In this document: in pieces, positions 9,576 through 13,474 of the stretch | How positions within the stretch are numbered: the stretch's first letter is position 1 | Layout: the number at the start of each line of letters is the position of its first letter | The notes under the pieces: model-generated | Told to the model about the DNA's origin: nothing | Databases searched by the model: none | Seen by the model: the letters and a program-made list of their open reading frames with translations, nothing else | Source: Methyloceanibacter sp. | GTDB taxonomy: Bacteria; Pseudomonadota; Alphaproteobacteria; Rhizobiales; Methyloligellaceae | Length of the DNA stretch: 39,586 nt | NCBI GenBank assembly: GCA_030669345.1 | Contig: DAOVDX010000003.1 | Coordinates: forward strand, 1 to 39,586 | Direction: 5' to 3' | Position numbers and translations under genes: made by a program

Positions 9576-9651
9576 TGGTGAGCCCGCCGGGACTCGAACC
9601 CGGGACCCTCTGATTAAAAGTCAGATGCTCTACCGACTGAGCTACAGGCTC
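9576..9651 (-). tRNA. tRNA-Lys (anticodon UUU)
   Basis: On the minus strand a full cloverleaf is readable. The acceptor arm GAGCCTG pairs with CGGGCTC (one G-U pair). The D arm is GCTC/GAGC, the anticodon arm TCTGA/TCAGA has loop CTTTTAA (anticodon TTT), and the T arm is CCGGG-TTCGAGT-CCCGG. Discriminator A and the 3' CCA are encoded (9576-9578). The 76-nt length is standard. Confidence 0.97.
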
Positions 9652-11629: not shown

Positions 11630-11728
11630 GGCAGAACCTGTATTATTGAGGCTTGATGACCTCGACCGCTCCCTGATTCGCCGGTAGATTGTTCAAACCG
11701 CGCCGATTCCATGAGAGGGAGGGACTCC

Positions 11729-12100
11729 ATGGCAATGCACAATCCGGGCAGCCGGACATTTCTGGCCATCGTCATAGCTGGCATCGTGGTTGGGTTCGTG
11801 ATCGCTGCGTATTTCATGCATGGAGGCGATAGCGAGACGAAAGCCAAGATGGATGCGCCTGTTGCCAAGCAACCTGCCGCCGAAAAAGCAACAGATGACG
11901 TGACGCCGCCGGACGAAATGTCGGACGACATGACGCCACCCGACGAGATGTCGGAAGATGAGGCCATGGCTGATGACGGTTTTACGCCGCCAGACGAAAT
12001 GCCTGAAGAGGCCATGTCCGATGAAGCACCCGACGCGATGACGCCTGCGGAGAACCCAGAAGAAGCCGTAGCCGAGGATCCGCCCCCAGCGAATCCATAG
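11729..12100 (+). CDS. Acidic, single-helix membrane protein with TPPDEM repeats
   Basis: A 123-residue protein of no family I recognise. Residues ~10-34 (TFLAIVIAGIVVGFVIAAYFMH) form one transmembrane helix; the remaining ~90 residues are low-complexity and acidic, with three copies of TPPDEM spaced by Asp/Glu/Ser/Met/Ala stretches. The tail is probably periplasmic and disordered. I chose ATG 11729, preceded by GAGGGAGGGA; the frame also has an ATG at 11711 inside that purine run. The gene is monocistronic, about 100 bp after the symporter, and is followed by a small hairpin. The repeat composition suggests a cation-binding or spacer role, but that is speculation. Confidence 0.75.
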   Translation: MAMHNPGSRTFLAIVIAGIVVGFVIAAYFMHGGDSETKAKMDAPVAKQPAAEKATDDVTPPDEMSDDMTPPDEMSEDEAMADDGFTPPDEMPEEAMSDEAPDAMTPAENPEEAVAEDPPPANP

Positions 12101-12162: not shown

Positions 12163-12199
12163 CAAAAGAAGAGCCCCGGCGCGGGGAGTGCCAGGGCTC
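12163..12199 (-). terminator. Rho-independent terminator (minus strand)
   Basis: The arms 12171-12180 and 12190-12199 pair over 10 bp on the minus strand with one G-U pair and a 9-nt loop, and run into TTCTTTTG. On the plus strand the same pair is a C/A mismatch and no T-run follows, so it acts leftward. It has no protein-coding gene upstream on its strand, which supports the candidate small RNA. Confidence 0.75.
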
Positions 12200-12300
12200 G
12201 TACGCTTTACACAGAACGCTTTAACAACCCAGACCGAACAAAACTGGGTTTGAGCACCATGCCACTACCCCATTGCAGTCCGATGACAGTTCCTTGTCAG
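12163..12300 (-). ncRNA. Candidate structured small RNA (three hairpins)
   Basis: No good open reading frame explains this 380-bp gap, yet the minus strand reads as an orderly chain of hairpins. These are TGACA-N6-TGTCA (12284-12299), AACCCAG-N11-CTGGGTT (12226-12250) and a GC-rich 10-bp terminator stem followed by TTCTTTT (12163-12199). A transcript of about 140 nt starting near 12300 would end exactly at the terminator. A -10-like AATACT (reverse complement of 12299-12304) is present without a convincing -35. I do not recognise the family. A strong terminator with no coding gene in front of it is the main evidence. Confidence 0.5.
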
Positions 12301-12478
12301 TATTCTGAATAGCAACAAGAAGTTGCGGGCCTGGTCTCATCCTCGGCGGGGAGGGCGTTCAACAAGTGTTTTGACGCGCGCGGCTGCGCTTGCCCATAGC
12401 CTTGTGTGGCGCTGTCCCCCATGCACAATGTTCGCAAGTTTCGGCATGCAGCACGAATTCTCGGCGGGGTCCTAATAG

Positions 12479-13474
12479 ATGCGGTGGCGCGGTCAAAAAC
12501 AAAGCCAGAATGTTGAGGACCGGCGCGGTCAACGCCGCGGTTTTGGTTTTCCATTTCCCGGGCATGGTGAGCGCGGCGGTGGCTTCCGCTTTCCGAGCAG
12601 GGGCGGCCCCCCGCGTCGTGGCGGCGGTATCGGCATCGTCGGCGTGCTCGTCATTGTGGGCCTTATGCTGTTCTTCGGCATCGACCCCTCGGTGCTCATG
12701 CAGGGCGGTGGATCGGGTGGGGGCGCTGGTTTCCCCGACATCACCATGCCCCAACAGAGGCCCGATGCGACGCGCGTTCCGCAAAGACGCGGACAGGCGA
12801 GCGACATTCAGCGGCCAAAGACCGGCGCCGACGACGATCTCAAAGGCTTCGTGGCCGTGGTGCTCGCCACCACCGAGGACAGCTGGGAACATATTTTCAA
12901 AGGCCTTGGTCAGCGCTACCGCGATCCAAAGCTGGTGTTGTTCACGGGCTCGGTGCGGTCTGCTTGCGGAACCGGCATGTCCGCCATGGGGCCGTTTTAC
13001 TGTCCTAGCGATGAGAAGGTTTATATCGATCTCGCCTTCTATCGTGAGTTGAAGAACCGCTTTCGCGCGCCAGGGGACTTCGCCCAGGCCTATGTCATTG
13101 CCCACGAGGTCGGTCATCACGTGCAGAATCTGCTCGGCATTGCCGACAAGGTCGACAGCGCGCGCCGCCGAATGGGCAAGACCGAGAGCAATGCGTTGCA
13201 AGTCCGTATGGAGCTGCAGGCTGATTGCTTCGCAGGAATCTGGGCCAACCAGATGCAAGCGGACAAGGGGCTCATCGAAAGCGGCGACATTGACGAAGCG
13301 ATCCGCGCGGCCGGTGCGATCGGCGACGACCGCATCCAAAAGCGGACACAAGGCTATGTGGTGCCGGATTCATTTACCCACGGTTCGTCGGCTCAACGTG
13401 TCCGTTGGTTCCGCCGTGGCTATGAAAATGGGAACCTGAAGCTCTGCGACACGTTCAACGTAGATAATCTGTGA
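12479..13474 (+). CDS. Neutral zinc metallopeptidase, YpfJ family
   Basis: A 331-residue membrane-anchored protein of the YpfJ/putative neutral zinc metallopeptidase family. It begins with the family-typical MRWRG, then a Gly/Arg/Phe-rich low-complexity stretch (residues ~5-50), one transmembrane helix (~51-67) and a periplasmic catalytic domain. The zinc-binding HEVGH motif is at 209-213, inside AQAYVIAHEVGHHVQ, and the likely third ligand E245 lies in ELQADCFAG. Four Cys in the domain (about 163, 175, 250 and near the C-terminus) could form disulfides. All catalytic residues are intact. Physiological substrates of this family are not established. The gene appears monocistronic; the upstream 170 bp shows no clear promoter. 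Confidence 0.9.
   Translation: MRWRGQKQSQNVEDRRGQRRGFGFPFPGHGERGGGFRFPSRGGPPRRGGGIGIVGVLVIVGLMLFFGIDPSVLMQGGGSGGGAGFPDITMPQQRPDATRVPQRRGQASDIQRPKTGADDDLKGFVAVVLATTEDSWEHIFKGLGQRYRDPKLVLFTGSVRSACGTGMSAMGPFYCPSDEKVYIDLAFYRELKNRFRAPGDFAQAYVIAHEVGHHVQNLLGIADKVDSARRRMGKTESNALQVRMELQADCFAGIWANQMQADKGLIESGDIDEAIRAAGAIGDDRIQKRTQGYVVPDSFTHGSSAQRVRWFRRGYENGNLKLCDTFNVDNL

Follow-up and report, generated by a model that had tools for sequence, protein, structure and literature searches.

A predicted family-specific small RNA gene in Methyloceanibacter, possibly under PhoB, with a conserved candidate partner site

The window analysed here, a stretch of 39,586 nucleotides from Methyloceanibacter sp., contains a leftward intrinsic terminator (12163-12199, minus strand) with no protein gene upstream of it on its strand. 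Both neighbours are plus-strand genes, an acidic-repeat gene at 11711-12100 on one flank and a zinc peptidase gene (PF04228) at 12479-13474 on the other. The terminator is real by direct reading: its 10-bp stem, which includes one G-U pair, is formed by arms 12199-12190 and 12180-12171, and encloses the loop ACTCCCCGC (12189-12181); the U tail at 12170-12163 reads TTCTTTTG, given also as UUCUUUUG. The stem is paired in every cell of the alignment of relatives (100%), and the loop sequence UCCCCGC is invariant across Methyloceanibacter and Methyloligella. A sequence-only reading of the DNA had proposed an independent small RNA of 140 nt with three hairpins; its coordinates are correct, and the comparisons described below uphold the independent RNA and shorten it. 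ARAGORN calls a single RNA on the window, a tRNA-Lys at 9576-9651. The acidic-repeat gene encodes a fast-evolving, membrane-anchored protein in which acidic TPPDEM motifs recur and to which no Pfam family matches; in most genomes the gene has stayed beside the small RNA.

BLAST of the minus strand finds the block in 15 of the 16 other Methyloceanibacter genomes and in two Methyloligella genomes; unlike the region itself, its flanks are not conserved. The genus mean of the majority-base frequency is 0.83-1.00 over 12250-12171 and 0.84 in the tail, compared with approximately 0.45 outside the conserved region. Upstream it is 0.85-0.92 over 12300-12271 and about 0.77 over 12330-12301. The zinc peptidase gene adjoins the small RNA in 17 of 18 aligned loci, the eighteenth (L007) beginning at a contig end where this neighbour cannot be seen. 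Run against 398 genomes of the order, a covariance model scores Methyloceanibacter at 97-120 bits, Methyloligella at 68-71 bits, and a locus from a third genus of the family (L112, genome G019) at 42 bits; strong scores are confined to the Methyloceanibacter/Methyloligella family, with one strong copy per genome. The search returned 120 nominal matches; those inspected below approximately 40 bits are ordinary GC-rich terminators, and no credible match was seen beyond the family among those inspected. No Rfam family reaches its gathering score across the whole window, in the local region at a loose threshold, or in four relatives, and the weak matches at the locus are of the kind expected by chance. 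Plasmid matches to the small RNA were not found, and inspection of the alignment revealed no conserved open reading frame within it.

The structure is conserved together with the sequence. The 5' hairpin P1 (12226-12250, minus strand), already recognized from the sequence, has arms 12250-12244 and 12232-12226; 87% of its cells are paired in the alignment and three of its seven pairs show changes on both sides. Folding of 12163-12253 gives a z-score of -3.6 with none of 200 shuffles equally good, and the RNAs of relatives give z-scores from -1.8 to -5.4. Between P1 and the terminator lies a linker (12200-12225) that is nearly invariant, with conservation of 0.86-0.98; its core in the window is GCGTTCTGTGTA at 12219-12208, and in most species the linker reads GGUAGUGCGUUCUGUGUA. 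Noncoding sequence and structure conserved across species, in an intergenic gene with a terminator of its own, are features of a trans-encoded small RNA. Taken with its single copy and constant location, the conservation, fold and terminator of the locus strongly support an independent small RNA on the minus strand, and the locus reads as a single-copy, family-specific small RNA gene.

The start of this RNA is placed by a conserved element, CATGGT at 12261-12256 of the minus strand (CATnnT in relatives), which resembles a -10 hexamer; a -10 in this position would put the start close to 12250, where the 5' hairpin begins, so that the RNA, running from 12250 to 12163, is probably about 88 nt long and not 140. 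Upstream of the hexamer, at 12300-12272, three direct repeats resembling a PHO box (CTGACAA-N4-CTGTCAT-N4-CTGCAAT) end 10 bp before it. Relatives keep this arrangement, in which the three 7-mers recur every 11 bp and exactly 10 bp separate the last of them from CATnnT; most relatives carry CTGACAA-N4-TCGTCAC-N4-CTGCCAC. Promoters activated by PhoB have tandem 7-mers at 11-bp spacing that end approximately 10 bp before the -10, and the box here likewise has tandem CTGTCAY-like 7-mers at that spacing and takes the place of a -35 element; the region 12256-12300 is most likely a PhoB-type promoter. A further conserved block, GCAAATCcTTGTtGcTATTAA (12308-12334, minus strand), lies just upstream of the repeats and is not a box repeat unit. 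In relatives, a plus-strand CTTGTG...ACAAT pair (CAAAAT in some) at approximately 12402-12428 is probably the promoter of the zinc peptidase gene.

The regulator itself is encoded in the genus: phoU and phoB, whose products score above cut-off for TIGR02135 and TIGR02154 respectively, are the last genes of the pst operon, which carries 11-bp repeats of its own; phosphate-selective porin genes (PF07396) of the same genus show the same layout, for example GTGTCAC-ACAC-CCGTCAT-N10-ATAGAAC. The pst/pstS promoters of the genus are of two types (L085, L086 versus L087-L096): one carries strong PHO boxes, the other CTGTCAT-AATA-GAGAATC-ATCA-GCGTCAT repeats. A PHO-box matrix trained solely on the porin and pstS boxes scores the small RNA boxes of Methyloceanibacter at p values of 6e-6 to 1.3e-4 per position (pooled matrix), with location and spacing constant throughout, and those of other genera more weakly; orthologous boxes are not independent observations. 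Most of the boxes score 13-15 bits, below the training sites (19-28) but within the range of the pst-operon boxes (8-15). In Sinorhizobium meliloti the distance from PhoB box to downstream transcription start is 22-25 nt for 16 of 33 boxes (PMC3616915); the distance predicted here is 22. Taken as a whole, the layout makes control of the small RNA by PhoB probable.

Three other accounts of the locus have to be weighed. The RNA gene may be real while its promoter answers to another regulator of the OmpR family, or is constitutive, the likeness to a PHO box being one of architecture only; other OmpR-type regulators bind tandem repeats at the same spacing, and the box has several mismatches to the CTGTCAY consensus, is weaker than the porin PHO boxes of the genus, and fades in several loci (L004, L006, L007, L013, L016, L017 and L112). 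Against this, nearly all Methyloceanibacter loci have the best box of the searched region at one and the same position and spacing, the window has an exact CTGTCAT, and the spacing matches the PHO promoters of the genus, which leaves an account that is unlikely, though not to be neglected. A 140-nt RNA starting near 12304, with a third hairpin at 12284-12299, is far less probable. The palindrome on which that hairpin was based, TGACAAGGAACTGTCA, is present in the window; however, in 14 of 18 relatives the inner (fifth) pair of its five is broken, so that the compensatory changes expected of conserved stems are found in P1 but not here, and it reads better as part of the direct repeats that take it in than as an RNA stem. 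The -10 then proposed, AATACT at 12304-12299, is not conserved, the stretch between palindrome and RNA is poorly conserved, and the fold of the whole 145-nt stretch (z = -1.9) is less exceptional than that of the short RNA.

Equally remote is the reading in which there is no RNA gene at all, and the block is a conserved terminator beside regulatory DNA, for example that of the zinc peptidase gene, or marks where a longer antisense transcript ends. A divergent plus-strand gene does begin at a distance of 180 bp, with a promoter region that is conserved as well; the linker, however, is the most conserved part while being neither promoter nor terminator, and pairing in P1 is kept through changes on both sides. 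The reading preferred here is that of a trans-acting small RNA gene of about 88 nt, specific to the Methyloceanibacter/Methyloligella family, started by PhoB and pairing through its linker with the help of Hfq; we assign it a probability of roughly 0.68.

If the RNA acts in trans, the linker is the part most likely to pair with other RNAs. Of the sites matching ACGCATTACAC and ACAGAACGCAC, just one came up at the same location in many genomes, 3' of a PotD-like solute-binding gene (PF13416). The site, UACACAGAAYGCAC(C/G)AYC, precedes a conserved hairpin and is complementary to the linker over 12-17 nt in the 12 genomes tested; similar sites lie near or downstream of the PotD-like operon in G007 and G015. 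For nine representatives the pairing reaches p values of approximately 5e-6 to 2e-5 per position, while the controls score much lower, and in 7 of 11 cases the duplex energy is better than that of shuffled sequences (0.02 or less). Because A and C abound in the site, its complementarity is only moderate evidence. Its interior changes are all A-to-G or C-to-T, by which pairing is kept through G-U. The RNA changes in G003 and G016 each break one pair and are uncompensated; no double compensatory change between the RNA and its proposed partners was seen in the PotD-like sites of the 12 genomes or in hfq. In G002 the intergenic site is gone, with 70 bp left, and the RNAs of G002 and of the window are without the 5' part of the pairing region; the window's own contig ends inside the PotD-like gene. 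Downstream of the PotD-like gene in Methyloligella (L242), no corresponding site was apparent by eye.

A reading of the PotD-like element as another copy of the linker, lying on the other strand, was set aside, complementarity and identity being the same fact; the wobble direction of the site changes is the sole point that favours pairing over such a copy. A hairpin, GCACTGCCGG(A/G)GCGGGGCCGGCAGTGC (L230:9132-9158 in G014, and its equivalents), lies between the convergent PotD-like and BcsS-like genes; it is nearly identical across the genus and has a strong U tract on neither side. A search for targets of the terminator loop (GCGGGGAGT near ATG) gave 11 scattered matches, fewer than its backward control. 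Among the possible partners the 3' region of the PotD-like transporter operon ranks first, and it could be a target or a sponge.

A second complementarity is found at the start of hfq, a gene present in all 17 genomes (17/17): codons 3-6 (ACAGARCGCACG or close variants; L256-L272) are complementary to the linker core over 9-11 nt in most of the 17. At codon 3 the third base A is kept through a Thr/Ala exchange; the RNAs of G003 and G016 pair poorly with the hfq start. Since the match falls within a conserved stretch of coding DNA, and a ranking across the genome would probably not single it out, the hfq start is treated as a lead only and as a weaker candidate than the PotD-like 3' region.

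The preferred reading, that of the PhoB-started small RNA, suggests a course of events which we infer from these comparisons, from transcription to the effects on partners; the comparisons themselves show the conservation, the stems, the box with its spacing and the complementarity. Under phosphate scarcity, the three 7-mers at 12300-12272 would be occupied by phosphorylated PhoB, which would stand in for a -35 element, and minus-strand transcription would start near 12250. The 5' hairpin would protect the RNA and leave the fixed linker GCGUUCUGUGUA exposed, and the 3' end would be formed by the terminator with its C-rich loop and U tail. Together with Hfq, on which the RNA is predicted to depend, the linker may pair with other RNAs; the PotD-like transporter transcript could be repressed or stabilised, or its 3' region could titrate the RNA. 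A more speculative extension, which we consider improbable, is that the PhoB-induced RNA pairs with both the PotD-like 3' region, as a decoy, and the hfq start, such that phosphate starvation would retune the supply of Hfq and, through it, the small-RNA network of these methylotrophs.

Small RNAs directly under PhoB are, to our knowledge, rarely documented. EsrL of enteropathogenic E. coli and the phosphate-responsive small RNAs of S. meliloti are linked to phosphate starvation, as this RNA is predicted to be through a PHO-type box in place of its -35; no sequence relation to them was seen. The reported PhoB site of EsrL is unbound in ChIP-seq of E. coli K-12 (PMC10294691), and the S. meliloti RNAs are known from expression changes (PMC8829014). 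The Hfq-associated trans small RNAs of Alphaproteobacteria (the alpha-r families, AbcR, SisA-D and CrfA) are likewise short stem-loop RNAs that end in a terminator and have a C-rich loop; pairs of small RNA and sponge occur among them, CrfA being a sponge in Caulobacter and SisA-D being alphaR8 siblings (PMC12559287). This RNA differs from the alpha-r/AbcR/alphaR8 class in that it has no Rfam match, one strong copy per genome, and a distribution within a single family. The CCUCCUCCC-type loop motif of cuckoo/alphaR8 RNAs is absent here (A1), and with one strong copy per genome there are no siblings. SroC is a sponge of GcvB derived from a 3'UTR of an ABC-transporter operon; the proposed partner here is likewise found 3' of a solute-binding gene of an ABC transporter and might serve as a sponge if it forms a stable RNA.

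A literature search found no small-RNA work on this methylotroph lineage. What is new is a family-specific small RNA, possibly under PhoB, with a conserved candidate partner site in another RNA; the lineage thereby gains a concrete candidate for a small RNA of phosphate stress whose start site, regulator and pairing region are all predicted, and the conserved candidate partner would make the circuit testable with few experiments.
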